Of a DNA stretch of 32,497 nucleotides, positions 2,945-31,440 are shown one piece after another. The notes beneath the pieces were generated by a model. That model searched no databases, was not told the origin of the DNA, and saw only the letters and a list, made by a program, of their open reading frames with translations. Location: positions 1 through 32,497 of the forward strand of contig JBBHKE010001400.1 in assembly GCA_037447655.1 (NCBI GenBank). The letters are read 5' to 3'. The number at the start of each line of letters is the position of its first letter. The stretch's first letter is position 1. The position numbers and the translations under genes were made by a program. This DNA comes from Zygnema cylindricum (lineage: Eukaryota > Streptophyta > Zygnematophyceae > Zygnematales > Zygnemataceae).

Positions 2945-4077
2945 ATGGCAGAAGTTGGACCCGAAAAAGTTTCGCTTGGAGAACCTTTACAGGGATGTTC
3001 GATTAAAAACGATTGCAATCAAGCTTGGCTGTCGCACATGTGGGAAGAGCATCCTGAGTCCATAATCCATCCGTTCTCTCAAGGTCCCTCCATGAGATCT
3101 TTTGCAAAAGTAAAGAACTCATCATTTTCCATTTGCGGAAATCTGACCACATCTTCCTTTCCTTCCGATCGTTCATCTTGTGACGTCTCATCAAATGCAA
3201 GGAACGTCGCATTTTTAACCTGTAGTTTCGATGCCGCCACTTTTGATGGTGAATTGTCTCACCCCACCCTCCATTCGCACGATTTATTCTTGTTTCACAC
3301 GCTTTAATAAATGCCTAACACAACCGGAAAACATGACTTTGACCAAAGCAATAGACACACCTATCATATTGCCTATAATTCGGATTGGGGGTAAAGTTTC
3401 TATTTCCACAAAATCCAGCCGGCTTATATGTCTGTGCATTCTCGGCTACCACTGATTGACCACTATTTAATGCTATCATAGTTGCCTCTTCGTCTAAGAT
3501 ATAAGCTTGAGCCACAGCTATATTCAATTTACTCTTCTTTAACCTTCTTAGCAGCTCCGTTGCTCCTCTATATTCAGTAGGTAGCCCTCTCATTAGAATC
3601 ATAGCTTGATGATAAGGAGGAAAAATCCCCCATGAACATGCATACTCCGACAACAAAAGCTTCAAGCCATTGCAATATGAGTTCATGTCAACCCCAGTAT
3701 ACTTATAGTCCCAAATTTTTCCAGCAGTTACAACCTCATTCTGCTCACTAGCTAAGACATAGGATTCACTCAAAGTCGTCCATATTTCAGATGCCGTAGA
3801 GATATTGATATAAGTCATGTTAAGATATTCTAACAAAAGTAACTTCAAAACATGCAATGCATCTTCATTTTTCTTTCCAAAATCTGGATCCGTATACGGA
3901 ATAATACCAAAATCACATCATACAATTTCACTTGTTTCAAGTAAGACTTAGTCAAACCACCCAATAAAGATACTTCTGCCCATAAAAAACCATGATCCAT
4001 GAGGGAGGGCCCTTGACCTGTTGATTTGAGACAACTGGTGCCACTGAAGAAGATGAAGAAGCACCGGCAGTTGCCAT
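2945..4077 (-). pseudogene. Copia gag-protease relic
   Basis: On the minus strand the ATG at 4077 opens MATAGASSSSSVAPVVS. Frameshifts follow between about 3950 and 3860. The main gag body (3857-3318) reads through WTTLSESYVLAS, MILMRGLPTEYRG and LDEEATMIAL, typical of the UBN2-type copia gag, and ends in a CCHC zinc knuckle at 3318-3359: C-VY-C-FGQS-H-VFRL-C. A TAG stop follows immediately. After a degraded linker the protease active-site motif WIMDSGCSSHMC is seen at 3031-3072, with the catalytic DSG intact. Downstream protease sequence is not recognisable. Integrase, RT and RNase H are missing, so this is a truncated copy of a different subfamily from A1. Confidence 0.8.
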
Positions 4078-5810: not shown

Positions 5811-6560
5811 GCCTGTAAGGGATACACTTCATAAACTCGGTAAGGGATACACTTCATAAACTCTCTCTCTTTTGGACTCATTTGATCATCTAAGATTACC
5901 ACTCCTCCTTCTATACTTCCATCACTTATTTTCTTCAAGTTCATGGAAGTGGTACACCTGTTTGATTTGTCCATCTGAAATTTCTCGATCATATAACCTA
6001 TTGTTTCTTTGTGAGTAAGTCTGATAATATTTTTCCCCCTATCTCTCTCTATTTGGATTCCCAAAATATATCTTGCCTCTCTTAAATCCTTCATGTGAAA
6101 TATGTTTCTAAGATCTTTTTTTAACTTTTTGTTCTTTTTCATTGACTTACTTAACACCAACTAATCATCCTGATATATTGAAACAAAAATGACACCATTC
6201 TTATCTTCAAACATACAGATAAAATGGTCTGAGCTGATCCAGATATATCCTAGACAGGTGAGAAACTCATCTAGTTTTTATTCCATTGTCGAGATCCTGT
6301 TTTAGTCAATATAAGGACTTTTTGAGCTTACAGACTTTGCTCTCTTCTCCTTCCTCCACGAACCCCTCTGGCTGCCGCATGAAGATATCTTCCTCTAACT
6401 CACCATTGAGGAAGGCGGTTTTAATATCCACCTGGTGTATCTCCATGTCTTCCGCGACCGGTAGATTGAGGAGAATCCTTACTGATGAGAACCGAACAAC
6501 TAGAGAAAATGTATCCTCATATCAATCCCCTCTTTTTTGATGGACCCTTTTGCTTCCAAC
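5811..6560 (-). pseudogene. A1 reverse transcriptase
   Basis: RT is shown by MKDLREARYILGIQIERDRG and LTHKETIGYMIEKFQM, and upstream by an equivalent of the E1 block QMDIKT...FMRQPEGF. The catalytic YVDD box at 6164-6175 reads YQDD and is followed at once by a TAG stop, so the enzyme is dead. Other damage includes a local duplication around 5808-5860 ('gggatacacttcataaactc' twice) and several frame changes. Confidence 0.85.
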
Positions 6561-7100: not shown

Positions 7101-8081
7101 GAGTCAAATGACTTCCCTTCGTCCATGATAACTAGGTGTTTGACCACAATGAAATCTTGTTTAACTGATTCATAGACTTTATATCCTTCGAATTCTTGAT
7201 CATATCCTACAAAGTATCCAGGATTTCCCTTAGCATCTAGTTTCTAGTTTTTCCTATCCGTATCAAGATCGTAAACTTGTCTACCGAATACTTCAATGTA
7301 AGAGTTATCTGGTTTCCTTCCAACCCATCTCTCATCAGGTGTCATTCCTTTACGCCTAAGGTAAGGACTTTATTCTTAATGTGATTGGCATAGTTCATGG
7401 CTTCTGCCCAAAACCTTTTTCCTATTTTCTTATCGACCAATATACTGCATACATTATCTCCTAGTGTCCGGTTTAACAACTCAACTACCACATTTTGTTA
7501 TGGATTATACAATACAGTTTTTTGATGCTGAACTCCTTTGTCCCTCAAGTATTCCTCATACTTGTCAGTGGTATACTCTCTCCCATTATCACTCGTTATT
7601 CTCTTAATGGGGGCTCCATGCAACTTCTCACTCCAGGCTTTATATTCTTTGAAGTAAGTTGGTGTTTCAGACTTTGTTTATAGAAAGTAGACACTAGAGT
7701 ATCTTAACTAGTCATTGGTTATTGTCAGCATAAACCTTTTCCCTCCAATCGAACGTACTTTTGTTGGTCCCTAAATATCTGTGTGTACTAGATCTAGTTC
7801 TTTCTAACCCTTAAATGTGGCGGTGTTGGGAAAAGGATGTCTAAGAGCCTTACCTTGGGTACATCCACGATAGTCATCCACTATTTCATTATCCCAATGT
7901 GAATGCCTTCTACTACACCAAGCTTCTTCATTTCCCTCAACGTATCAAGATGCACATTCCCCAACCGCTTATGCCAAATCATCAACTTTGGGACACCAAC
8001 ATAATAAGCATTCTTCTTTTCATTACTCGGGTAAGGCTAAACATTCCTTGGCTACCCTTATCAGCCATGAAGTAGTCTTCA
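7101..8081 (-). pseudogene. A1 integrase
   Basis: From the 5' side of the gene: the pre-integrase zinc region reads WHKRLGNVHLDTLREMKKL (7900-7975), the core has TSDNGREYTT (near 7580; family consensus SDNGGEY, so one Gly is now Arg), then FWAEAMNYANHIKN and RWVGRKPDN, and finally VGYDQEFEGYK and MDEGKSFDSF. The order and spacing are right for a copia integrase. Stops and frameshifts occur throughout. The 5' edge (8022-8081) is duplicated at 10931-10990 on the far side of the B2 insertion. Confidence 0.85.
8022..8081. repeat. 60-bp flanking duplication, left copy
   Basis: ATTACTC...CTTCA, matched at 10931-10990 at about 83% (some nine substitutions and two single-base indels by eye). Both copies lie in A1 and border the B2/B3 insertion exactly. 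Both encode the same YF-ADKGSQG segment. Confidence 0.8.
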
Positions 8082-9386
8082 TGTTGTGACTTGAAAACTT
8101 TAGTACACAGCAAATGGGTCACTGGGAGAGGGATTAGTACTTAGAATATTTTTGGTTTACACACTTTAGTAATGACCCCTAATAGTGTTATAGTAGTATA
8201 AGGACAAAAGAGCGTACCATACTTCTACAGTGCACGCGTCGGCCGATGAGGTTTTTGCAGGTATTTCAGAATGGCGCCGACACTCACATACAGGTGTCGT
8301 ATATCGAACGAACGGATTCGTAGAATTGGATAGATGTAATTTGGACCAGACATCCAGTAAATTTACTGTACGGATTCAGTATTGAACGTTAATTCGAATT
8401 GTGTGGATGGACGCGATTCGCGCGAGACAACAAGTGACGAAGCACGCCGTACACACTCAGGTGTTTCGTAACGCACAACAACAGTCCGTTGGACTTATAT
8501 GAACAATACTTAATAAGCATCCATTTGAAATGGGACCATAGATAATGATTTGGAAGTGTGTCGTCAACTGCAAAAATCTACTTTACATCTTACAACAATA
8601 CGTGAATTCAGAATTGACTAGTACTGACCCTTACAGTAATTTGGACCGATTCGCCAATTGCTGACTAAGCAAGTGGCACAGTGTATGTACGGCCACTATC
8701 TGTAATTATGTGAAACAACATTAATTGTATTTAGTGAATTAGTTTTTAGTGTTACATTATTGAAATAGGATAAAAGTTACAATTAGGGTTTTGGAAGTAC
8801 TTTTGGTACAGTAGACGTACCGTTGACGGACGTACAGTTAACGTACAGGGAATTTATTAGGGTAGAGTACTTAGTTACACATTTAGTAGCTTGATTAGTG
8901 CAAGGCTTACTAGATAGCTATGTGAGTATAAAATGTAGGACTTATTGCTATTTTCAGCATCACCTGAGTTTATCGAAGTAATGGTAGACTGTTTTTCTGC
9001 ATCTTTGACCTGTCACTTTGATCACTCTAATTGATTTCTTCATATGAAACTTTTCTTCGATGTTCAATGATATAGAAACTGTATGTTTGTGTAGTTTCAT
9101 TATTTTCTGTTGTTTCTGTAGAATTCAGTGAGAGATTTACTTGGTTAGTTTGTTAAGTTGTCAGTTTTTTTTAGGAAACTCTGGAGCTCATAACTTTTGG
9201 ACTCCTTTTTGGATCAGGCTGTAAATTTGGAAAGTAATAGTTTCTTGTTTTTATTGCATATTGGTGCAGTTTGAGGTGATTTTGTATATTGTGGAGCAAT
9301 TGTGTTGTATGAAACACAACTGTTTTGGGGTAGTCTGTGGGTGTTTTTCGTGAGTAATCCATGGCTGTAATAGGTTATGGACAACA
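8082..9386 (+). repeat. B-type LTR (copy B2)
   Basis: It starts TGTTGTGACTTG and ends GGACAACA. At 1305 bases it is shorter than the B1 copy chiefly because it lacks the two tandem duplications found there. Next to the LTR end is GGTTATGGGCCCAC. Confidence 0.8.
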
Positions 9387-9732
9387 GGTTATGGGCCCAC
9401 ACCCAAGGCTACCAATATTTGATGGATCTAACAACTATCTCTACTAGAAGTGTGTGCTCAAGAGCTACTTCGAGATGATGGAACTAATTGATGTGGTTGA
9501 TGGGACTTTGAGCGAAACATCAAGTGGATGAGATAAGATGAACCGCGAGTGTCTAAAGGTTATCAAGAACTCTTTGACTGAGAAACTGGTAATGTCACAC
9601 CTAAGTTTTAAAAGTGCAACTTAATTATGGAAGTGCTTAGAATGTACAAATGCAAAGACTTCATATAAAAGTGCATATGTTACTGGAATTTTTAGAGATG
9701 GATGAGACAACAACCGAGTTCTACCCTCAACA
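9361..9732 (+). pseudogene. Broken copia gag start (B2)
   Basis: Same frame as in B1: MAVIGYGQQVMGPHP, then RLPIFDGSNNY, with the stop at 9445 replacing the expected Trp and three further shared stops. The tRNA-complementary sequence doubles as codons for QVMGPH. The sharing of all four stops with B1 shows that the ancestor was already defective. Confidence 0.75.
9387..9400 (+). other. Primer-binding site of B2
   Basis: GGTTATGGGCCCAC directly follows the LTR end ACA and is complementary over 14 bases to GUGGGCCCAUAACC of eukaryotic initiator tRNA-Met (plant-type anticodon stem, from memory). This is the best-preserved such site in the window. Confidence 0.75.
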
Positions 9733-9846
9733 AGGAGGGAACCAAATGCTTTCATAAGCGAGGGACAAGCCTCAACCAATGACAAAAAGCCCACAACTTC
9801 GGTCGAAATATTCGTTTACTTGCCGATTGTTTATGATTTTCAGAAT

Positions 9847-10293
9847 ATGGTGAAAGAGGAAGGAAAGGGAAGGTTTAACGCAACAAAAAATGGATTGAAG
9901 GAAGAAGTAATAGAAAAGGATTTGATTACTGTCAATGTTTCCGATGACAGATTGGTGAGTGGCACAAACTTACAAAAAGAAGAGGTTATTGAAGTAGGGG
10001 AAGTTGAAGAAAGTGAGGGGCACACAGAAGTGGAAGTGGAAGTGGAAGGGACAGAAAAAATTGTTATAACCAAAGATAGTGAAGTACACTTAAAATTGGA
10101 TAAACAATATTATTTAGATATAGAATATACTCAACTAAAAACAAAATTGAAAGAAAGATTGAGAGAAGATGATAAGAAAATTAGAGTAAGGGAGGAGAAT
10201 GATGAGAGAGAAAATGGTGGATTGGCACAAAATGGAAAAACACAAATAGAATTGAGAAAGAGAAAAGTGTCATTGATGTTTTTAGTGTTATAG
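9847..10293 (+). CDS. Acidic/coiled-coil-like ORF inside B2, unknown function
   Basis: Open from the ATG at 9847 for 148 codons, after a possible 3' splice site ('gattttcag', ending at 9843). The protein is dominated by Glu, Lys and Arg: first an acidic part (residues about 1-75, with EVIEVGEVEESEG and a repeated EV run), then a basic helical part with KLKERLREDDKKIRVREEN. The last dozen codons enter the 3' LTR (from about 10278). It has no zinc knuckle, DSG, DDE or YVDD motif, so it is not ordinary gag-pol. It could be a captured host exon or a much-changed gag C-terminus. It may not be expressed. A shorter copy is in B1. Confidence 0.45.
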   Translation: MVKEEGKGRFNATKNGLKEEVIEKDLITVNVSDDRLVSGTNLQKEEVIEVGEVEESEGHTEVEVEVEGTEKIVITKDSEVHLKLDKQYYLDIEYTQLKTKLKERLREDDKKIRVREENDERENGGLAQNGKTQIELRKRKVSLMFLVL

Positions 10294-10930
10294 TACTGAA
10301 ATAGGATAAAAGTAACAATTAGGGTTTTGGAAGTACTACTGGTATAGTAAACATACCTTTGACGGACGAACCGTTGACGTACAGTGACTTTATTAGGGTA
10401 CGGTTACACGTGTATTACCTTGATTAGTGCAAGGCTTTGTAGATAGCTATATGAGCATAAATTGTAGGACTCAGTGTTATTTTCAGCATCAGTTGAGTTT
10501 ATCAAAGTAATGGCAAAGTGTTTTTCTGCATCTTTGACCTGACAGTGTGATCACTCTGATTGATATCTTGAAATGAAACTTTTCGTGGATGTTCTATGAT
10601 ATAGAAACTATATGTTTGTATAGGCTGTTTCTGTAGTATACTGTGAGAGATTTACTTGGGAAACTATATGTTTGTATAGGCTGTTTCTGTAGTATACTGT
10701 GAGAGATTTACTTGGTTAGTTTGTTAAGCTGTCAATTTTTTTAGGAAACTTTGGAGCTCATAACTTTTGGATTCCTTTGTGAATCAGACTTTAATTTTGG
10801 GTAGCTATAGTGTCTAGTATATACTACATATTGGTGCAGTTTGAGGTGATTTTGTATATTGTGGAGTAATCTGTAATGCCTAAAACACAACTATATTAGG
10901 GTAGTCTGTAGGTGTTTTCGTGAGTAATCC
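10278..10930 (+). repeat. Partial B-type LTR (B3), 5'-truncated
   Basis: It matches B2 from about 8741 to 9360, ending at GTGAGTAATCC, 26 bases short of the full LTR end. Divergence from B2 is clearly larger than between B1 and B2. It contains a perfect-looking 56-base tandem duplication (10604-10659 and 10660-10715). It may be the 3' LTR of the B2 element or a second element's remnant. Confidence 0.75.
10604..10715 (+). repeat. 56-bp tandem duplication in B3
   Basis: Units start 'gaaactatatgtttgtatag' and end 'gagatttacttgg'. B1 and B2 have a single, more diverged unit in the same place. Confidence 0.9.
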
Positions 10931-11310
10931 ATTACTCAGGTTAAGCCTAAACAACCTTGGCTACCCTTATCTGCCGTGAAGTAAACTTCATCCCCATACT
11001 TAGCTGTAAAGACTCCTTTTCTAGTAAAGGTATCAAACTCTTTGTCATCTAACACAGACATAGAGACAAGATTTTTACTCAGCTGAGGAATGTAGAGTAC
11101 ATCTGAGAATGTGAGTATATAAGTCTTACCCTCCACTAAGACTTTGAGATCTACTGATCCCACTAGATCTGTAGTAACCACTCTCCCATCCCCATACTCT
11201 ATCTCTACAGTAGGGATCTTTCTTAGCTTAGTGAAGAGTTCCTTATCACGACACAAATGCATGTATGCACCTGAGTAGATGATCCATCCTTCCTGTGAAG
11301 CTTCCCGAAT
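10931..11310 (-). pseudogene. A1 aspartic protease
   Basis: The minus-strand reading has WIIYSGAYMHLCRDKELF at the active site. The copia family has D-S-G here, so the catalytic Asp has become Tyr. It continues with TKLRKIPTVEIEYGDGRVV, FSDVLYIPQLSKNLVSMS (the highly conserved copia 'LYIP-L--NLLS' block) and GVFTAKYGDEVYF. The open part is 108 codons (10936-11262), with no complete start because it was part of a gag-pol polyprotein. Function lost. Confidence 0.85.
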
Positions 11311-12126
11311 TTCTCCAAAGGCAGAATTCTGTCTCTGATGGATCTCCTTCTCCTCCAGACACTCGTCAAGAAGAAGCTCCCCATCCTCCTCAAAAGACTC
11401 GTCCTCGGTTTATCCTGTCAATTTTGTAACCACAAGTGTCTTTTTCTTCCCTCCGGAAGAACCCCCTTCACAGTTCTCTTAGAGCCTCAACTTTGATAGC
11501 TTGACACAATCCGCGATGAAGTGTCTCGGTTTTCTGCAAGAATGACAAAAACCTTTTAGGGGGCTCGGTCCTCCAGACTGATCTCTTTTTCCTTTGTATG
11601 TTAAATTCCCCAACTTTTGCTCGGCCAACTAGAGCTTCTGAATCGTACCAGGTCTATAGATCTCCAAAAAACTCACCCACAACTCCTCAACCTTGTAAAC
11701 GTGAAGCTCGAGGGTTACCAAAGCTTGAGTGAGGTGTCTTAGAATGAATTTTATGGTAGCCATGTTGATGTCTTCCCACATCTGGGTGTCGTTCTCCGCG
11801 GTCTTCTCGATTGCCGCTCCGAGTGCCGTGGGAATAGGAGCAATAGGAGTAAGAGGTGTCTTTTGCCCTTTCCACTTTTCGGACACACTACTATCCCTAT
11901 CATGTGCCTCCTTCGTTGCAGCAGCTGTTGGTGCAGAAAACCTTATTCCACCAAACAGTGGTGGAGTTCCATGAGGTGGACGTCTCACTTGTCCACTTAC
12001 AATACCCCTGTATCGTTTTTTGTTTAAAGCCCTTGTCATCATGGCTTCCCAATAAATGAAACCAGTTTCATTGAAGATTGATACCCTACAGGGTAGGCCC
12101 ATAACTTGCAATTCTGTGTCCTCCAT
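11311..12126 (-). pseudogene. A1 gag with CCHC zinc knuckle
   Basis: The frame opens at 12126 (inside the LTR end) as MEDTELQVMGLPCRVSIF with WEAMMTRAL, the gag N-terminus. The body includes DINMATIKFILRHLTQALVT and ends in a leucine-rich segment. After a frame change the zinc knuckle appears at 11506-11547: C-HS-C-RKPR-H-FIAD-C. Gag forms the virus-like particle and the knuckle binds element RNA. About 60 residues in the middle (RRPPHGTPPLFGG...) are atypical for gag and could be linker or frameshifted sequence. Several stops and shifts break it. Confidence 0.75.
12094..12106 (-). other. Primer-binding site of A1
   Basis: After the LTR end TTGCA (at 12107) comes A-GTTATGGGCC-TA. Ten bases match the complement of the initiator tRNA-Met anticodon arm, as in B1 and B2. 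The same GTTATGGGCC in two diverged families in opposite orientation argues for function, not chance. Confidence 0.6.
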
Positions 12127-13662: not shown

Positions 13663-14526
13663 TGTTGTCTTGAAGACTTAGTTTCTTACACATTTGATTT
13701 AGTGTCGCCTTCATAATACGGTATGATGCGTACGTAATTTGGGAGAGCGAACGATTCGTGATTTACGTCATTTGGTGCGGGTTCATTTGGAGGATTCGGT
13801 TTGTAAAGCAACGACTTAAATACCAGCACGTGGCGTATGATTACTCGTGGATTATCGCGTAGATTATTTGCGGCAGTACAATGAAAATAATATTTTGGAA
13901 CATCCGCTGCGGTTTGCGGATACACTTTGAGTACTTTGGTGACACACGACATTTCGTTCACGGTGCTGATTTGGGTACACGGACGACGGACGGAAGACCG
14001 CCGACAAATGATGACTCAAGAAGACGACATTAATGATTTGATGACTCAACGAGCATACTTTCGTGTCTGCGTAAATATTTGGTTCAACAGTGGTTTGTCT
14101 TTTTTTAAATATCTAACTAGTGTAGTTTTATCAGTTTTTAACATACTTTGTGTTTTCAGTATACAAACACTAGTGAATGTAGGAGGTAGTTAGCATACGG
14201 CTGGTATGCCACCGTACTACAACAAGGCGTCTGATTGGTGGAAATACTTAGTAGTGTAGTCTGTGAGGGTATACATATAGGACTTGTCATTTTGTAGAAT
14301 AAGAACTTTTTGGACCAAAACCTGTTTATGGTGTTTTTGGTAATTTTATCTGTGGATTACTCTCAGATCTGTTGGCAGAATGATCTGATATTCTGCATGT
14401 GTGTTCCTCTTTATAATTTTAATATTGTCATAGACTTTTAGGCCTCTTTTTTTCCTGGTCTGTGTTTTAATTCATTGTGAAGTTAGTCTGATTTATCAAA
14501 GTTCTGACAGACTGTTTTTCTGCAAC
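13663..14526 (+). repeat. B-like 3' LTR, cut by assembly gap
   Basis: It starts TGTTGTCTTGAAGACTTAG, comparable to the B start TGTTGTGACTTGAAAACTTTAG. Similarity to C1 (19067-20083, opposite strand) is clear, for example GTAAATATTTG near 14071 and 'cagactgtttttctgca' at 14509-14525. The expected last 200-400 bases of the LTR should lie beyond the gap but are not found there. Confidence 0.75.
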
Positions 14527-14536
14527 NNNNNNNNNN
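14527..14536. other. Assembly gap (10 N)
   Basis: Ten N, probably a gap of unknown size. It falls between an LTR cut in mid-sequence and the first base of the mirror repeat. Confidence 0.99.
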
Positions 14537-15172
14537 TCTTAACACTTTATCTGCACTATCACCCTCTCTATCTCTCTCTCTCTCCGCGAAAGTCCATGAA
14601 GCGAAAACACTTTACCGCAGACAACCAGCTCTGGGGAGATACCGGGGACATGCCTTATCTCAGTGTGTGTCCGACCTTTGTACGTCAGTATCATCAAGTT
14701 TAGCGCGTTAAAAAAGTAAAAAAACCTAAAAACGTATAATATGCACTGAAAACTTTTTTTAGCGTTTTTTTGCGATACATGAAAGACAGACCATTTGACT
14801 TACTTTTTACATGCTTTTAACATATTATTAAATGCCAAGTCCGTACATATCCCGTACAAAATAGTATAGTTACCGTAAATTATTATACAATTTTCGTACA
14901 TTTTTCATTCAGTTTACCAGACAGAAAGTACATAGCGTTTTTTTGCGATTTTTTTCAAAAGTCACGTATAATATGCAAAAATCCAAAAAAATGAAAAAAT
15001 TGCGCGATTTGAACTACTATGACTGCATGTTTCCAGCCTGTGTGTGACTCTATTCCGTACAGGGGCCATAGAGGGGTCTCGACCAACAGACGCCATTTCA
15101 CAAAAGCGAAGTACCTGAAAGCGCCTCTCTCTCTCTCTATCTCTCCCACTATCACGTCTATTTCACAATTCT
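14537..15172. repeat. Perfect mirror repeat, two 301-bp arms
   Basis: Position 14537+n equals position 15172-n without complementing. Arms are 14537-14837 and 14872-15172, with a 34-base centre (14838-14871) that is not symmetric. I checked long stretches of both arms base by base and found no mismatch, including poly-A and poly-T runs, the (TC)n tract, and the GC-rich blocks around 14640. Mirror (not inverted) symmetry of mixed sequence is not made by template switching, inversion or hairpin copying. No gene is present: the 66-codon minus frame at 14955-15155 has no family I know. Confidence 0.95.
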
Positions 15173-16371
15173 TGCAATGAAAAAGGTCAATAATGGTATC
15201 CTATGAAAGATCTCTAAAAACGATTGCTTTTACTAACTTTGGGAGTATTTTGATAGTAAGTAGAGTGAGAAAGGACTAAAAAAAAATATCGAGAAACCAT
15301 GGCGAAAAGTTTTAGAATTTGCGACGTCGACGCGCCGCGAGTTTTTAGTCGTCTATAACCGTCACATATTACACCCATGTATACACCCATCACTTTTTAA
15401 AGTAACAAGTTAATTGCGTTACATCGGAATGCTCTAAAAGTAGTACGGAGAATCTTCCCTAAAAAACAAAGTTACAAGACTAAGTTTCGGTTACATGGGA
15501 AATTGCCCTTAGTGTCACGCGGTAAGTCTTGGGGCACGCGCCTGTGTAGGTGTAACTTAGCGATCACACTTGTTTTGCTTTGACGTGTCTCTCTACTACA
15601 AAACTCATCGCTACTAATGACTACACTAATTGGGAAATGATCATGGCAGTGACTATTTTGGTTCCGCACTGTCACTTAAGTCATTTTGTCAAAGATTGTA
15701 CGTTTGAAGTACACATTGGTACAATTATTGTACCGTTGAGTTTAAATTTGACGGTCGATCGGTTGAACAACTTCGACTTTCAAAATATTGTTACAACCGC
15801 TTAAAGTGTTGCCGCGCGTGCAAACGTCGACCATCATAAGAAAATAAACAATTCACACGGCCGGCGAAGGTTTACAGTAACAAAACTACGTCAACCACAT
15901 GTAAATAAAAGTGTTGCGCACATTCACTTTGTGACCTAACGTGAGCTCCACAGTGAGAGCACATGTTGGATTTTAACTAAGCCGTAAAAATGGAATTTAA
16001 TGGTCAAGCGTTACATTGAAATTACACGCAAATTGAAACCTCTCAAAACTGAAGTACTAAAAGTTTTGTACGAACATAGTAAATCGCACGAAACGAAATA
16101 GACTTTGTTACACTATAAGTCTATAATAAAACGAAGTGGGGTAAATATATAATTTGAAAGTAAATGAAAAAAATGCGCGTTGTCACGCGCGACCAAATGA
16201 AGCCACACTATGTACCAATCAACATTCTTACATTACATTTCGTGCGATTTGATAATGTAAATAATGTGTACTTATTTACTTGTATTTCATAATGTGTACT
16301 GTATCGAATCTTGCAAATTTTTGGCTGCGCAGGGGTGTCGAAGGCGTCCTCGTCGCCCGTATTCTCCGCGT
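15173..16371. other. Unassigned stretch between mirror repeat and solo LTR
   Basis: No coding domain, LTR or tRNA is recognised. Open frames are short and lack motifs. The sequence is AT-rich with scattered CG-rich words (for example 'gacgtcgacgcgccgcgag' near 15326). It carries the low side of the L2 insertion site at its end. Confidence 0.5.
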
Positions 16372-17389
16372 TGCAATTCTGTGTCCTCCATTGGACAATA
16401 GAATACAAAAAGCCTCTAGATAGTGTTTAACTAACCCAGTTCAAGCCACAATCACTGCTGCCCAAGATGTCAAACTGACGGTTTGAATACAACCCTTTTC
16501 AGCTTGGACTCCTCTAAGTCCGTAGCAAAAAGAATCACTGAAAACGGCCAACCAACCGATTAGTTATGAGTCGACAAAGATGCCAATTTCAATAAAGCTC
16601 CCAAGGGAGAGGTGACTGTCAAAAAATATTCTAAGTCCTACATCTCTCTCACAAACCCTATCTACTAAAGTACGTTCCAATCAGAATACTATAAAGTACC
16701 AACAAGTACTGTAACCGATGTACTTTATGTACGACCTCTGTACGACAAGGCCATGGAGTAGACGCGTGTTGCCGTCTGAATCATCTTCTGTCGTCCAAGA
16801 TCCCCGCTACTCATTTCAATCATGCCACGTATCGCTAGGTCACTCCACGTCACGCCATGTCTGAAAACCGCCAAAGTGACTATTTTGGGACTTCGGCGAG
16901 AATTAGTGCCGTCGGATGAAGACGGATGTTTAATGTACACCGTTGAAAATAAATGTCCGACTCATTTATTTTGTGTTGTGGATTTGATGTTCGTATTGAA
17001 TCTGCGATGTCTCTATGTTTCCTTTTCATTGTTATTTAAGTCGAGTTAATGTTTTGTTTAATGTTTAAATAAATATCGTACCTCATGTAATGTAACGAAC
17101 TTCATTGACAGACTGGTTTAGAGCTGACGGCTACGCCATGCTCTGCCAGTCGGAGGTTCGAGTCTTGCCGAACTCAACCTTTTGTTGAGAGTAATTTAGG
17201 TTGCTCTTAAGTCCTGCCTATGGAGCTGAGGCAGCCATGGCTCCACGAGCCTCTGTATCCTTCGATGACTACAACAAGTATGGGGGTAGAGTGAAGAGGC
17301 GGAGGCAAGCTGCTTACGCTTTTACTTTTCCTGTTTTTACTAATAAATTCAGATCTAGAAAATACCTTATAAATCTAATAATTTCAACA
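16372..17389 (-). repeat. A-type solo LTR L2
   Basis: 1018 bases, TGTTGAAATTATTAG...GAATTGCA on the minus strand, with no internal element sequence on either side. Five-base flanks on the minus strand are GCGCG and ACGCG (four of five match), fitting a copia 5-bp target duplication. Such solo LTRs form by recombination between the two LTRs of one element. It includes a hairpin: ATAAAGTAC (16691-16699) with GTACTTTAT (16720-16728). Confidence 0.8.
17110..17172 (+). other. tRNA-like segment in L2
   Basis: TGGTTTAGAGC (D-arm-like) and GGAGGTTCGAGTCTTGCC, where GGTTCGAGTCT is a good B-box. Spacing between the boxes is close to that of a tRNA gene. Antisense to the LTR. Confidence 0.5.
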
Positions 17390-18016: not shown

Positions 18017-19040
18017 TAGCGTTGTGTTCGAAAAGGCTGTCACTCTAATTCATATTTTTCATGCCATTTCCAAACCCCACAAGTGCATATCTCGGTAAAA
18101 AAAATATGTATTTCGACGAATGCTGTGAGGGTACAGAATTGTAGTACTCTTAGACCTTGCACGTGAAATAATGGTGATAGGAGCTTAGCGTAGACGTTAC
18201 AAAAGTCGACACACAAATTGGCGCCAAGTGTCAAAATAAATTTTAATGTTTTTTTTGACACATACATAAAATAGTACTGCACTCTTGTGTATCGGTAATT
18301 TTTTTCCGACAACTGATATGTCCAATTTCTTGGCTTACTGATAATCGATATACCGGCGCGATATATCATTCGCGGTGTTATCGCGATGGAAAACCGATCT
18401 CATCGCGATAATATTGGGAAATTATATATCGCGCATGTATATCATTTATCTGTAAGCCGAAAGATGGGACATATCGGTTGTTTGCAAAAGCCTACCTATA
18501 CACAAACACTGCAATACTATTTTGCGTATGTGTCGAAAAAAAACATTACCATTAATTTTGGCATTTGATTGTTTTTTATCGCGATAACACCGGTATCAAT
18601 AACTATTGGAGATAATTGTACACTTTATTCTGTACAACTATACGGTTTATTCCACCAACACGTTGTTGACCCCTTTCCCTCCCCGATTTCAAAAAACAAT
18701 CGCGATATTTGCTTGGTTTTGCTATTATAGTTGTAGTACTGTAAACTACTATTTTGACTTTGTTTTGTAACGTTAATGTATTGCAATGTCCGCACTAAAA
18801 TTACGTTATATAGAGTACGGAACCGATTATCATACGTGGCATGCCATGCTATATAATAAGTGACATAATACAATATAGTATAAAGTACTATTATACACCG
18901 TACTATCTTTATTTCTACTTATCACCGATAAGGAACTTGTTGGTCTCGAAACGTTATATTGAGACCCCACGCCGTGCGATAACCGATAATTATCGTTATC
19001 GGTTTTATCACGATAAGTTTTTTGCTGATACACAACACTA
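18017..19040. mobile_element. Possible second hAT-type element, ATCG-rich
   Basis: Left end TAGCGTTGTGTTCG and right end (reverse complement) TAGTGTTGTGTATC resemble the ends of the neighbouring candidate at 17661-17956. The interior of about 1.0 kb repeats TATCGCGATAA, CCGATAA and ATCGG words on both strands (for example 18370-18420, 18580-18600 and 18977-19015). No transposase is seen. Flanks share only 'aaaat'. Confidence 0.35.
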
Positions 19041-19066: not shown

Positions 19067-20083
19067 TGTTGTCCATAGCCATTTTCAGCCATGGATCTAC
19101 CCTTGGAAGCACCACAAACTACCCAAAAACAGTCTACTTTGAATCAACACAGAATTCTACAAAAATAACAACACAAGCTGAAAATACATACACAGGTATT
19201 TTATAGGCAATAAAATAGCCTCACAAAGTTTCAGACAAAAATAATAAAAAGATTGATCACATCATCTAGTCAAAGTTGCAGAAAAAACAGTCTGCCAGAA
19301 CTTTGATAAAACCGACAACTTCACAATAAAGTTACGCACAGACCAGAAACACAATAGGTCTGCAAATCTGTGTCAATGTAGAAAATACAAGGAGGAACAT
19401 ACATGCAAAATTTCACATAATGTTGCCAACAGATCTGAGAGCAATACTCAAACAAAATTGCCAAAAATGATCATAAACAGTTTTTCTGGTACAGAAAGTT
19501 CCTTAGTCCTGAAATGACTAAGTCCTACAATGTATGCACTCAGGCTCACTACTAAATGTACGGAGGCATACCAGCCGTACGTAATCTACCATATACTTAA
19601 ATTACTGTGAGTATACCCGAATAATTCAAGGTATGTCAGAATAAATGGATCTACACTAATGACTAATTCACAAAAAGACAAATCAACGTTAATTCAAATA
19701 TTTACACCGACACCTCCGTAAAATCCATGTACTAGACGACAACCTGCTTAGTCACATGTAGATAAAACTACGTAGTGAAACGACATAGCATAAGTATGGT
19801 CCACTTGATAACACGTCCGGCGGACGCCTTCAGCCCTCCAAATGTACCACGGACCAATTGCCGAAATTAAACTGTACCTTCATAATCATTTCCGTACTGA
19901 ACCTGCGTCCTTTGCAATAAATGCGCCTGTCGCAAATAAAGTACACCTGTCCAAATAGGAAAGATTTTATTTCCAAGAACGCGATGGTAATACCATCAAA
20001 GTACAAAACATGATTGTCACTAAAAAGTATTGATGACCAACAAAGGTTAAAGACCACAATCCTAAAGGACTAAAAACACAACA
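19067..20083 (-). repeat. B-like LTR (C1), minus strand
   Basis: Its minus-strand end reads GATCCATGGCTGAAAATGGC then TATGGACAACA, the same terminal 30 bases as B1 and B2, followed by unrelated sequence and no primer-binding site. The likely start is TGTTGTGTTTTTAG at 20083. Flanking 5-mers (AATTT and ATTTT on the minus strand) are nearly alike. There is no polypurine tract or pol beside it, so it is best read as a solo LTR. Confidence 0.6.
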
Positions 20084-20086
20084 AAA

Positions 20087-20398
20087 ATGCGTAAAAAGCC
20101 TAAAAAGAATGAAAGAATGCAAGTAGAACAAAACCAAACTATGGAAACACTACAAACTAACCAAGACGCTAAACCCTCAAACTATACCCAACTAAATATC
20201 AAAACTATGGATATCGTCTATATGGCGCTCCGTATTGGCCGCGTACATATACAACATTTCGTACAATTCATAACGGATCGCTTCGCGATCCGCCGTCCAT
20301 TTGCAAACGTATTCCGAGCCACTCAATTACTCACTCATGTCCCTTTAATTCCAAACGTGCAATCTCCATTTGTATCACCACATTATTTCCGATATTAA
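20087..20398 (+). CDS. Basic ORF in C1, unknown function
   Basis: 103 codons starting MRKKPKKNERMQVEQNQ. The first 93 codons are identical in the second copy at 21548, then the frames diverge. It has a basic, Gln/Asn-rich N-terminus and a more hydrophobic middle (IVYMALRIGRVHIQHFVQF). I recognise no domain and the low third-position bias is not convincing. Identity between copies reflects recent duplication and does not show selection. It spans a perfect hairpin at 20274-20292. Confidence 0.25.
   Translation: MRKKPKKNERMQVEQNQTMETLQTNQDAKPSNYTQLNIKTMDIVYMALRIGRVHIQHFVQFITDRFAIRRPFANVFRATQLLTHVPLIPNVQSPFVSPHYFRY
20274..20292. other. 8-bp perfect hairpin
   Basis: CGGATCGC-TTC-GCGATCCG, stem of 8 with a 3-base loop. 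The same hairpin is at 21735-21753 in the duplicate. Confidence 0.8.
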
Positions 20399-20458
20399 TC
20401 TACGCAGGAAATATCGCGTTTGCACAAAATGTGGCGTACGCACGAAACTAACATTTCA

Positions 20459-21091
20459 AAAAAAAAGACTCCCTTGAAATTTTATTTTCGTGCACCCATT
20501 ATATAGTATTCCGCGTGTCAAATGAAACTGTACCTTTCGTTCTAATGTCACCAATGCTTCCATTGATTTCACTACTTATTTTGCTGACGTCAACAGTGTT
20601 GTACTACGACCACCAGTGCAGGTGGAGGAGCAACAGTAGTAGTAGAAGTAGACATAATACACTCTCAGAAGCTATCAAAAATCTTATCAAATAGTTGTTT
20701 TAAAGTTATCACCATATCTTATACAAGCCTCCAAACCTCACAAAACATTATTCGGATATAGAGTAGCATAAACATTGACAACTCCCAAAGTTTGAGCACA
20801 ATTGACACGACAACACTCAAGATATAATACTCAAAAGTATCCCAAAAACTGTCAACAGTTTACTACTTCGAAGTCTAAATACAATTTGTGTTATGAGTCT
20901 TAAGTCTTTTACTTCTGTTGTACCGATAATACCACTGTACCTGAGAGGTATGTCAAACCGCCAAGCTAATACCAATCTATCAAGCTACCGTTGAGCTACC
21001 ACTTAGCTACCGCTAATCTAACTAGATTCGTATCTATCGCAGCTGCTCTATACTAAACTGAATCATATTAAAATATCCGCAGCTGCGTCTG
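20459..21091 (-). mobile_element. Copia gag-start/LTR fragment, minus strand
   Basis: The ATG at 20657 (minus) opens MSTSTTTVAPPPALVVV, resembling the low-complexity gag N-terminus MATAGASSSSSVAPVVS of the relic at 4077. GTACAACA at 20597 fits an LTR end inside this coding start, but the next bases do not match the tRNA site. The upstream part (20660-21091) is probably LTR by position only. It also contains three 11-base units AGCTACC(G/A)... at 20983-21015. Confidence 0.4.
20983..21015 (+). repeat. 11-bp tandem repeat, three units
   Basis: AGCTACCGTTG, AGCTACCACTT, AGCTACCGCTA. Short satellite-like run in otherwise unassigned sequence. Confidence 0.8.
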
Positions 21092-21126: not shown

Positions 21127-21950
21127 GCACAAAAAGACAAATCAACGTTAATTCAAATATTTACACCGACACCCTTCCGTAAAATCCATGTACTAGACGA
21201 CAACCTGCTTAGTCACATGTAGATAAAACTACGTAGTGAAACGACATAGCATAAGTATGGTCCACTTGATAACACGTCCGGCGGACGCCTTCAGCCCTCC
21301 AAATGTACCACGGACCAATTGCCGAAATTAAACTGTACCTTCATAATCATTTCCGTACTGAACCTGCGTCCTTTGCAATAAATGCGCCTGTCGCAAATAA
21401 AGTACACCTGTCCAAATAGGAAAGATTTTATTTCCAAGAACGCGATGGTAATACCATCAAAGTACAAAACATGATTGTCACTAAAAAGTATTGATGACCA
21501 ACAAAGGTTAAAGACCACAATCCTAAAGGACTAAAAACACAACAAAAATGCGTAAAAAGCCTAAAAAGAATGAAAGAATGCAAGTAGAACAAAACCAAAC
21601 TATGGAAACACTACAAACTAACCAAGACGCTAAACCCTCAAACTATACCCAACTAAATATCAAAACTATGGATATCGTCTATATGGCGCTCCGTATTGGC
21701 CGCGTACATATACAACATTTCGTACAATTCATAACGGATCGCTTCGCGATCCGCCGTCCATTTGCAAACGTATTCCGAGCCACTCAATTACTCACTCATG
21801 TCCCTTTAATTCCAAACGTGCAATTACTCCCCCAAATCCACAAATCCATTCGAACCTCCATTTGTACCACCACATTATTTACGGTAAAAATCTACGCACG
21901 AAACGTCGCGTGCGCACAAAATGTGGCGTACGCACAAAACTAACATTTCA
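21127..21950. repeat. Duplicated block, copy C2
   Basis: Second copy of 19669-20458. Its left edge lies inside LTR sequence and its right edge at 'taacatttcaaaaaa', as in C1. The last 130 bases differ from C1 by a 28-base insertion and about ten substitutions, in contrast to near-identity before. Confidence 0.9.
21548..21943 (+). CDS. Basic ORF in C2, unknown function
   Basis: 131 codons. The first 93 match the ORF at 20087 exactly. The 28-base insertion shifts the frame and gives a different, Cys- and Thr-containing tail ending in two near-identical ARNVACAQNVAYAQN-type units. No known domain. Probably fortuitous. Confidence 0.22.
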   Translation: MRKKPKKNERMQVEQNQTMETLQTNQDAKPSNYTQLNIKTMDIVYMALRIGRVHIQHFVQFITDRFAIRRPFANVFRATQLLTHVPLIPNVQLLPQIHKSIRTSICTTTLFTVKIYARNVACAQNVAYAQN

Positions 21951-24180
21951 AAAAAACCACCATTGTCACAAAGCAAAGGCCGTATTTGGATTTCACGACA
22001 TTTGTAAATGCTGCATAAATTTGTGATGATAATACAAAAGAAGTACAGTAGAGGTAAAAGTGTTTTGTAACATTGTACGCGTCACTCAAAGTCACTAATT
22101 TTGTAACTCTTCACCATGGTTTACGAAAGCATATTTTCTTAAAATCACCATCAAACCACACAGAAAATTATTAAAACCACATAATTTTATAACTATTTTA
22201 TTCTACACTCATTTTGTCGCGTTGCATTTGAGGAGGGTGGAGAGTGGAGCTAAAGTGTGAGAGAGGGGGAGAGGCAACCACGACTTAGAATTTTGCTACT
22301 GACCCATAAATGAAGGTGGAGGTTTGAGACCCATGGAAAATGTTTGCTATACATACGTGTGACGGATGTGTAACAAGATGGTGTATACTCTCCCTCACGT
22401 AAAATTATGCACATTCGTGTGACACGTGCATAAATGATTTACAATTCGTTGTTCATGCATTACTTTAACAAAAGTAAATGCTCAAGGTGATTTTGGTTAA
22501 AATTTGAAGATGAATGAAAATCATGTCTTTGTGGGTGGAAAAAATGAAGAAGGCAAACTTAGAGCACATTCAAGGTTTCAATATGACGTGCATTCTATCA
22601 TGTTTTTTAAAGATTTTACGTACAATGTAACGTTTTCTCGTTTCATGTTAAATTTTGGAGGAGCAAAAAAAAAAAAAAAATTACTTTGACAAATAAGCAC
22701 ACCCCCTAGATATTGATAAAAAATGGTAAAATCATTTGCGTTTTATAACTCTTTCACTTCATACTAAACTTGTCATGTTTCATCCCGAGAAAAGGGAGAA
22801 CGGAGAGGTAGTGGAAGAGGGAAGGGTAAAGGCATTGATGGCATATACTTTTGCAACGACGAATGAATGAAAACGGAGGTTTGAAACAGTTCGCATAAGA
22901 AAAAAAACGTGCGTATAAAAAGCAAACAAAACGATAACGTGTACTCTCCTCCTTCTCAAATGTAAAAATTACGTGAGACGTGCGAAGAGGTTTTCTTAAT
23001 TGTTGGTGAGATGGCATTTACCCTTAAACTGACTCGAGAACTGATTAATGTTTGAGTTTTTAGATGAAACCGTGAGTGTCATACCCACGGGCAAGATCGC
23101 CCTAATGGATTAATAGTTATTTTAAAACATCACATTTTTGTAAGGTTTTGTCTTTTGCATGTTGCGCACGTGGCCTTTTTTGTTGAAAACTTAGCCTTAA
23201 GGACATTCAAAACACCATTTTCTTGTATTTTGAAAACATGTAATCTTGGAGTTGCCAGTTTGGTGTTAGTTGCCCATATACATGACACATTATGACTTCC
23301 CCATCAACCCTTTTAGGTACTATATACTATAATTTTATTGCTCAAGTTTAAATCAAAGAATATTTTCTAATCCTTGGAGGCTTCTCTACGAAGGTTTTGT
23401 TCAAACAAACAACGGATGTTTGCTTTGGCTACAACTGTCCAAAGGAGGTCCCGCTACTCCAATAAAAATGACACGACCCCCCTCCCTTATTTTTCTTTGG
23501 CGATTATTTGCCCCCTAAGCCATTGCTCCCTTCGTGTTCCCTTGGGATAACCTTTTTTTTTTGTTACCCGTGGGCATTTTATTATATATCAGATCGTATA
23601 TCTACTAAATTATTTTTTCATATTTAGCGACATATAAAGTACCTCTCAGCATCACGACGTTGGCCGCCCAATTGCTGATGAGCAACCAAGCTCGTTCACC
23701 CACCTCTCAAAGTGGATTTCGATATTTTCTTGTCGTTGCCTAACTCTCGAAATCTCCCCATATAGATTTCAATAAAAGTATTTCCAATTAATTCAACATC
23801 GTCAAAGGATTTTTGCTAAATAAATATAGAATAATGGAGCAACGTCAACCGTTTGTATAGTTGTTTTCAATATACGAAAGAGTCCATATTCCAAATAGTT
23901 TAATCACCGAATATGGCTCTGGTATCATAATTTTAGTTCGAGGCACTATGTCCTTCACTACCGCATACTTTTTATGTAACTTAATTGTTGAAACCCCCTA
24001 GGTGTTGCATCTTAAGTGGATGTGATAAGGGCCTTAACCACTTGGTCGAATGCCTTATGGGCCCAATAGTTTTTTGTTTCAAGACCTGGTCGTAATGTGT
24101 GATTAGTATTCTTGTGATGTGTGATAAGTAGTCTCATTAACGGAGGAAATGTAGATATTAAATCTTATATAGCTCCTTGC
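21951..24180. other. Unassigned AT-rich stretch
   Basis: No coding domain or LTR recognised. It holds a diverged duplication (22300-22440 and 22865-22985, sharing 'ggaggtttga', 'gtgtatactctcc/gtgtactctcc' and 'acgtg'), an A16 run at 22665-22680, and a T9-10 run near 23553. The frames at 22504-22689 and elsewhere lack motifs. Confidence 0.5.
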
Positions 24181-26574: not shown

Positions 26575-27200
26575 TCAACTTCTCTTTAGTCCACACTTTT
26601 CTCTACAATATTTAAACTTCGGAGAGGGCACAGATTCGGTCATCATATTAGCCACCATTTCTCCATCAGCCCTATACACAAGATTCACAATTTTGTTGTC
26701 AATTTTTTTCCTCACAAAACTCAATCTTATGTCCATATGTTTAGCCTTTAAATGATGCTTTGGATTGGCTACAATTTCAATGGCAACCTTATTGTCTTGG
26801 AAAACTTCATGCACTCCCTCCTTCATATATCTCACTTCTTGTAAAAGAGACTTGACCCACATCAACTCTTTCACAGCAGAACAAGAGGCCATGTACTCAG
26901 CCTCCATAGTGGACTGAGCAACCACCTTTTGTTGCTTGCTACTCCAACAACAAGCACCTTCCCCCACATATAACACATACCCAGAAGTGCATCTTCTCAT
27001 AGGTGAATCCCTATATCTGGCATCACTCCAATTAGTGATGTCAGTGTGCTCCCCTCCCAAATGCAACCAGAAATCTTCGGTTCCCACCAAATATCTCATG
27101 ACTCTCTTGGCGGCCTCCCAATCTCTCTTCTTAAGATCGTTAAAACTCCTACTGAGGACTCCAACTGCTGCAGCTATATCCAACATATTACAGTTTATAA
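26575..27200 (-). pseudogene. E1 RNase H
   Basis: One open frame of 203 codons: DWEAAKRVMRYLVGTEDFW, NWSDARYRDSPMRRC, SSKQQKVVAQST, MEAEYMASCSAVKELMW, VFQDNKVAIEIVANPK, MDIRLSFVR and a C-terminal VANMMTESVPSPKF. The catalytic Asp-Glu-Asp set (SDA, EAEY, QDN) is present, although the last box reads QDN where the related copies have CDN. A frameshift near 27206 separates it from RT, so it is a broken part of the gag-pol polyprotein. Confidence 0.85.
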
Positions 27201-27206
27201 AGTAGA

Positions 27207-27930
27207 TTAAGCTTCGTACGACCTTCCGTAAGGAATAGACTTCATAAACTGTCTCTCTTTTGAACTCATCTGATCATCTAAGATTATCACTCCTCCTTCT
27301 ACACTCCCATTACTTACTTTATTCAAGTCCACGGGTGTGGTACAATTGTTTGCCTTTTCCATCTGGAATTTCTCAAGCATATTCCCTATAGCTTCTTTCT
27401 GAGTAAGTATGATAATATTTTTCCCCCTATCTCTTTCTATTTGAATTCCCAAAATGAATCTTGCCTCCCCTAAATCCTTTATGTCATATCTGCTTCTAAG
27501 ATCTTTCTTTAACTTATTGACCTTTTCCATAGACTTACTTAACACGAGCAAATCATCAACGTAAATTGCAATGAAAATAACACCATTCTCATCCTCAAAC
27601 ATATAAATAGAATGATCAAAACTGATCCGGATATATCTTTGACCGGTGAGAAACTCATTTAGCTTCTTATTCCACTCTTTGGGAGCCTGCTTCAGTCCAT
27701 ATAAAGACTCTATGAGCCTGCAGACTTTGCTCTCCTCTCCTTCCTCCAGAAATCCCTCTGGTTGTCGCATGAAGATTTCTTCCGCTAGCTCACTGTTGAG
27801 GAAGGTGGTCTTAATATCCATCTGGTGTATCTCCATGTCTTCTGCTGCCGCTAGCCTGAGGAGAATCCTTACTGATGGGAACCGTAAAACTAGAGCAAAA
27901 GTCTCCTCATAATCTATCCCCTATTTTTGA
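27207..27930 (-). pseudogene. E1 reverse transcriptase
   Basis: An open frame of 209 codons (27836-27207) holds QMDIKTTFLNSELAEEIF, MRQPEGFLEEGEESKVC, SLYGLKQAPKEWNKKL, an intact catalytic IYVDDLLVLSKSM (YVDD at 27552-27563), LGEARFILGIQIERDRG and LTQKEAIGNMLEKFQM. It is the copia RT with the conserved Asp pair in place. The N-terminal part, before MEIHQMD, continues at DNA level to about 27930 but is interrupted by stops. Confidence 0.88.
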
Positions 27931-30066: not shown

Positions 30067-30744
30067 CTAGTCACCTTTGAATTTCATACCAAACTTCTCC
30101 TTGTAGAAAATTAGCTTAGAGGAAGGCACAGGTTTGGTCATCATATTTGCTACCATTTCACTATCTGGTCTATAATCTAAACTGATTTTTCTGTCTTCTA
30201 CATTTTCCCTAACGATACTAAGTCTAATGTCCATATGTTTTGCTTTAAAATGGTGTTTAGGATTGGCAAAAATGGCGATAACTGCCTGATTGTCACAAAA
30301 CACTTTCTGAACACCACTCTTAAGTTGACCAAGTTCACCAAGCAAGGACTTGACCCACATTAATTCTTTTACAGCAGAGCAAGAGGCCATGTATTCAACC
30401 TCTATGGTGGACTGAGCATTGACGTTTTGCTGCTTGCTGCTCCAGCAACAAGCCCCATCAGCCACATACAATACATACCCAGACGTGCATCTCCTCATAG
30501 GAGCATCCCCATAGCTGGCATCACTCCAAGTGGTGATGTCAATATTGTTCCCACCGAAATGCAAGCATAGATCTCTAGTCCCTATGAGATATCTAAAGAC
30601 TCTCTTAGCTGCCTCCCAATCTTTCTTAGTGGGAGCATTCAGACTCATACTTAGTACTCCTGCATTTGCGGCTATGTCCGGACGAGTACAATTCATGAAT
30701 AATATTAGGTTGCCCACTACTTGTCTATAAGGGATGGTCAACAT
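30067..30744 (-). pseudogene. E2 RNase H with RT C-terminus
   Basis: 225 open codons, the longest intact stretch in the window: PYRQVVGNLILFMNCTRPD (RT connection), DWEAAKRVFRYLIGTRDL, TTWSDASYGDAPMRRC, SGYVLYVADGACCWSSKQQ, IEVEYMASC, VFCDNQAVIAIFANPKHH, MDIRLSIVREN and VANMMTKPVPSSK. The Asp-Glu-Asp catalytic set (SDA, EVEY, CDN) is complete. It would act as part of the polyprotein, removing RNA from the RNA-DNA hybrid. A stop lies between it and the rest of RT, so the whole is a pseudogene. Confidence 0.88.
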
Positions 30745-31440
30745 AAATCTTTTCTTTTCCTAGCCTAACTCATTATCTAAGATTATAACTCTGTCTTCCA
30801 AACTCTCTTCACTTCCCTTCTTTAATTCTATAAGAGTGGTACAATTATTAGCCTTATCTATTTGGAATTTTTCTTGCATGTATCCAATGGCTTCCTTTTG
30901 AGTTAATCTTGTTATCTTTCTATCTCTGTCTCTCTCTACTTGAATTCTCAAAATATACCTTGTTTCTTCCATATCCTTTATCTCAAATCTTCCTTTTAGA
31001 TCATTTTACAACTTATTTATTTTATCCATTGATTTACTTTAAACAAGCAAATCATCAACATAAATTGCAATAAAAATAATTCCTTCCTCATTTATAAACA
31101 AATAAATGGAGTGATCTGAGCTGATCCGAATACATCCCAAACGTATAAGAAACTCATCGAGCGTCTTATTCAATTACCGGGGCGCCTGTTCAGCCTATAA
31201 AAAGATTTGATCAATCGGCATACCATGCTTTCCTTCCCTTGCTTCGCAAATCCCTCAGGCTGTCTCATAAAAATTTCCTCTTCCAACTCTCTATGTAGGA
31301 AGGCCGTCTTGATGTCCATCTGATGCACTTCCATGTCTTCTGCTGCCGCCATACTGAGAAGTATCCGAATTGAAGGAAGCCTGACGACCGGAGCAAATGT
31401 CTCCTCGTAGTTAGTTCCCTTTTTCTAGGTAAATCCCTTT
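30745..31440 (-). pseudogene. E2 reverse transcriptase
   Basis: From the N-terminal side: VHQMDIKTAFLHRELEEEIF and MRQPEGFAKQGKES (31352-31170), the catalytic IYVDDLLV at about 31065-31040 followed by a TAA stop at 31039-31041, then MEETRYILRIQVERDRDRK and LTQKEAIGYMQEKFQIDKANN (30972-30760). YVDD is at 31051-31062. Stops and a frame change near 31190 break it. Confidence 0.85.

Follow-up and report, generated by a model that had tools for sequence, protein, structure and literature searches.

A 301-base mirror repeat beside an assembly gap in a Zygnema cylindricum contig is very probably a data-processing artefact

Introduction

Mirror symmetry along a single DNA strand has been described for H-DNA. 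In human DNA, H-DNA is defined by an AG or CT content of at least about 90% and by a spacer of less than 8 bp, and the longest mirror repeat reported there has an arm of 797 bp and a spacer of 1 bp (PMC11879447). For copying in parallel orientation, the one published proposal that we met concerns RNA, a 3'-to-5' 'invertase' RNA in mitochondria put forward by Seligmann in 2012 (cited in PMC4942731). Sequence derived from a flank can also be written into an assembly gap by software. The tool Pilon narrows gaps that have no unique closure by consensus extensions from each flank; 13 of 14 such partial fills were judged to be free of errors and one was wrong, whereas most closures made with two other tools proved incorrect in the same evaluation (PMC4237348).

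Here, we analyzed a stretch of 32,497 nucleotides from Zygnema cylindricum (the window) that holds a long mirror repeat next to a gap. The arms of this repeat share the one-strand mirror symmetry of H-DNA repeats, and they are found in DNA, unlike the mitochondrial 'invertase' proposal, which concerns RNA (PMC4942731). As in the partial fills of gap tools, extra sequence derived from a flank appears to have been written into a captured gap without closing it (PMC4237348); it differs from them in being reversed without complementing. Our literature search, which covered titles and the openings of abstracts, gave among the matches listed neither a fill of this form nor a published fault of this kind. 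We conclude that the mirror most probably arose from an error in data processing and does not reflect the DNA of the organism.

Results

Geometry of the mirror pair

The locus is composed of the following parts, with the strand given where one applies:

14063-14526, minus strand relative to the copy at 19275-19713: end of the left contig, a copy of a dispersed repeat cut at the gap (the 71% match stops at 14526)
14527-14536, no strand: 10 N in a row, the sole N run of the window, probably of nominal size
14537-14837, no strand: left arm, 301 bases, repeating the right arm in reversed order without complementing (301/301), probably artificial according to its backwards-DNA score
14838-14871, no strand: asymmetric centre of 34 bases, with which the right contig probably truly begins, in its natural direction (k-mer sharing, moderate support)
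14872-15172, no strand: right arm, 301 bases, probably in natural orientation and running on into the right flank (direction score above zero at orders 1-6)

Direct base comparison showed that 14537-14837 is the reverse, without complementing, of 14872-15172 at 301 of 301 positions, so that base 14537+n equals base 15172-n for n from 0 to 300. Within the half-centre, 14 of 17 offsets mismatched, and 14838-14871 is therefore asymmetric. Since the window has no N run other than 14527-14536, the left arm begins immediately after its only gap, and the mirror may or may not once have extended further outward. An earlier note on this DNA had described a perfect 301-bp reversed, uncomplemented repeat around a 34-base asymmetric centre at 14838-14871, with one arm starting at the first base past the N gap, and both descriptions proved to be exact, the N run ending at 14536.

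To place this pair among others, exact, non-overlapping mirror pairs of at least 13 bases were counted at any distance apart. The window contained 21 of them, the 301-base pair included, and the runner-up measured 15 bases. In 20 simulated windows of second order, between 7 and 21 pairs were found in each, the longest having 14-17 bases. With the next pair at 15 bases and the simulated maximum at 17, the mirror lies beyond chance, and this origin was discarded. In agreement, when the reversed window was compared with the window by blastn (word size 7, E ≤ 1e-3), no further mirror pair was detected. Moreover, the arms are without a single difference, whereas the repeated segments of the window align with each other at 66-95% identity (blastn).

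Composition and content of the arms

Each arm has a purine fraction of 0.455, 59 distinct 3-mers, and a longest pyrimidine run of 15 bases. These values rule out low complexity as the cause of the mirror, and the claim in the earlier note that low complexity cannot account for it was thus borne out. Regarding H-DNA, the arms of 301 bases exceed the required length of at least 10 bp. However, with this purine fraction and pyrimidine runs of at most 15 bases the composition is far from about 90% AG or CT, and the spacer has 34 bases instead of fewer than 8. The purine fraction and the spacer led us to reject an H-DNA identity.

The same note had called parts of the arms coding-like. The longest open stretches were one of 86 codons within the left arm and one of 81 codons overlapping the right arm, and a protein search with both gave no candidate for either; hence, the description found no support and coding sequence was rejected as an identity for the arms. 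The window had no match to RNA families at the gathering score. Other copies of either arm were absent from the window at E ≤ 1e-8 (blastn), which argues against a dispersed element that is itself mirror-symmetric. Exact patterns of 21-25 bases were not found in bacterial and archaeal contigs (right-arm patterns) or in viral contigs (one pattern per arm), a result of little weight because the window looks eukaryotic and these collections are not aimed at such genomes.

The gap, the interrupted repeat and the surrounding window

On the left side of the gap, 14063-14526 aligned in reversed orientation to 19275-19713 with 71% identity, and the alignment ran exactly up to the edge of the gap (blastn). 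The copy at 19 kb is one member of a larger repeat family and continues past the equivalent point, matching the copy at 10278-10932 for about 50 bases further. When 10278-10932 was used as the query, its bases 221-305 matched 19310-19225 at 76%, while its bases 221-253 corresponded to 14492-14524 at 85%, ending two bases before the gap. Along the same query, 655 bases were matched by the copy at 8742 and 626 by the copy at 796. The continuations of four repeat copies, starting near the equivalent point, had no match with an E value below 0.15 in 14537-16370 in either orientation. Because the other copies run on while the sequence after the gap lacks their continuation, the alignments suggest that the gap probably interrupts a dispersed repeat in mid-element, a typical place for an assembler to stop, and the 10 N probably represent a nominal gap size. 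A natural truncation of the left-flank copy at the gap position is a conceivable alternative.

Three of five scanned proteins carried Copia-type domains (Pfam), and these pieces are:

3315-3917, 10936-11409, 27207-27920 (minus strand): Copia-type pieces with Retrotran_gag_2, Pol_BBD and RVT_2 (Pfam)

The open stretches at 26575-27273 and 30067-30759 had no Pfam match. The relatives of the Copia-type reverse transcriptase showed 35-48% identity in the best 120 of 870, with none close among the matches listed. The Copia-type domains indicate a eukaryotic region rich in retrotransposons. Several further duplications were observed in the window. Direct duplications of about 2 kb (126-2176 and 8074-10068, 94% identical, flanking a region with a Copia-type gag piece) and of about 0.8 kb (19669-20464 and 21128-21956, 95% identical) are present, and 18225-18567 aligns with the reverse complement of itself at 78%, forming a long imperfect palindrome that is possibly a foldback element. 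Two-copy tandem duplications with matches of 97-100% lie at 876-918, 1375-1440, 10604-10715 and 5815-5863, with units of 22, 32, 56 and 25 bases, respectively. The first three fall within copies of one dispersed repeat, each being extra in one copy only according to a three-copy alignment; they may reflect recent slippage or unmerged contig overlaps, the latter being another possible sign of assembly trouble.

Direction of the arms

A sequence and its reverse have equal base composition and different k-mer use. The direction of the arms was scored on this basis with strand-symmetric Markov models trained on the window minus about 13900-16400, and each arm was compared with its own reverse. The log-odds of the right arm were +0.36, +1.42, +2.35, +10.25, +7.31 and +20.06 at orders 1-6, the order-1 score being nearly nil, and the left arm gave the same values negated. 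As controls, we used 286 held-out stretches of 301 bases taken at a step of 100, dropping those that overlapped the mirror or held N. At orders 1-5, 65-90% of these stretches scored above zero, and the test is therefore of moderate power. Scores as low as that of the left arm were seen in 11, 0, 8 and 0 of the 286 controls at orders 3, 4, 5 and 6, and scores equal to or above that of the right arm in 167, 31, 175 and 115, counts that are to be read with the controls overlapping one another, some of them being copies of one repeat with raised scores, and with each model omitting only its own 3-kb block, so that the mirror stayed in training.

Some results fitted less well. The right flank (15173-16370) scored -6.9 at order 1, and then +3.4, +14.3, +17.5 and +37.0 at orders 2-5. 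When pieces of 150 bases were slid along the sequence, a few fell slightly below zero, e.g., 14913-15062 at order 5 (-0.8), and 15288-15437 gave -0.1 to -1.0 at orders 2-5. Collectively, these statistics indicate that the right arm is probably natural and that the left arm, on the side of the gap, probably runs backwards, a direction favored at all orders from 1 to 6 and weakly at orders 1-2. The test is blind to whether software or a biological process did the reversing.

The 34-base centre

The centre shared more k-mers with 14872-16370 in the forward than in the backward direction: 162 against 102 for 5-mers, 49 against 23 for 6-mers and 18 against 5 for 7-mers. Among random 34-mers, 0.15%, 1.0% and 1.75%, respectively, show such an excess. 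For 8-mers, the counts were 5 forward and 2 backward, reached by 17% of random 34-mers and thus uninformative. Against the right arm alone, the signal was weaker, with forward and backward counts of 43 and 18 for 5-mers (1.8%), 13 and 5 for 6-mers (7.8%), 5 and 2 for 7-mers (14%), and 1 and 1 for 8-mers. The Markov log-odds of the forward centre were -0.26, +0.22, +0.98 and +3.14 at orders 2-5. With this forward excess, the probable start of the right contig is at about 14838, with the centre in its natural direction, for which the support is moderate, and the left arm would then repeat bases 35-335 of this contig in reversed order. A conceivable alternative, in which the centre is newly assembled sequence that was also reversed and the right contig begins at 14872, would explain the layout neatly, but it was not adopted because the shared k-mers favor a centre in forward direction.

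Discussion

The mirror adjoins the only N run of the window to the base; by simple arithmetic, a feature placed independently of the gap would do so at about 2 positions in 32,000. The left arm abuts the gap as added sequence would, reproduces part of the neighboring contig and scores as unnatural where it lies, with strong scores at orders 4 and 6 and weak ones at orders 1-2. The preference of the earlier note for a data or assembly artefact is supported by these observations: the arm that scores backwards touches the gap, the gap splits a repeat, and the copy is without differences. The mirror and its place at the gap are direct observations, and the direction of each arm is supported by a statistical test. 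From these we infer that a gap-extension or contig-end step wrote part of the right contig reversed and uncomplemented into the record and left a nominal 10 N, and we consider this the likely origin of the mirror. The right contig would truly begin at or near 14838 and run rightward through the right arm. During the extension or filling of the gap to its left, 301 of its bases would have entered in reversed order without being complemented, and the remainder of the gap would have been left as 10 N. A possible cause is a routine that extends leftward by handling strings in reverse and that failed to turn one of them back.

By default, Pilon leaves at least 10 N in a gap, and it handles extensions from the right flank on reversed strings. 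We do not name Pilon as the cause of the mirror. The low error rate reported for its partial fills counts against a gap-fill origin, and a simple copying error from the edge of a contig would leave no 34-base centre. The record could also have been changed at another step, e.g., by a contig-end script, a format conversion, scaffold editing or a deliberate insertion, and would still be an artefact. The anatomy suits any step that handles contig ends; nonetheless, the backwards-scoring arm sits where gap extension adds sequence, and we give such other steps a minor share of the probability. Far less likely is a natural left arm, either as the genuine start of the right contig or as a gap fill, with the right arm as a reversed copy that was joined to the right flank at 15172. 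Small direction scores at orders 1-3 would be in line with this, and natural stretches as low as the left arm do occur at orders 3 and 5, which would be compatible with it, but none was found at orders 4 and 6, and the right outer boundary has no gap.

The least probable readings are biological. A true mirror duplication would require copying in parallel orientation, uncomplemented and reversed, a process unknown in DNA metabolism; the recorded sequence has exactly this form, and the direction scores would also agree with such an event. Opposed to this reading are the coincidence of an arm boundary with the window's only N gap, arms that are not homopurine, their identity amid diverged repeats, and the lack of a second case within the window. 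To our knowledge, there is no polymerase that copies in parallel, which also counts against such an event, and we know of no 'invertase' enzyme that has been isolated. Together, these points make a true duplication extremely improbable. Equally improbable is a version of this reading in which DNA synthesis or end joining in the organism copied the 301 bases in parallel orientation beside a repeat that is hard to assemble, and in which the structure itself stopped the assembler and so gave rise to the adjoining gap.

If it were true, the mirror would mean parallel-strand copying of DNA. As an artefact, it means that an assembly can carry hundreds of reversed bases beside a gap, which would be missed in ordinary homology searches, and such reversed DNA could pass for unique sequence. 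A scan of assemblies for long mirror repeats would be a cheap quality test.
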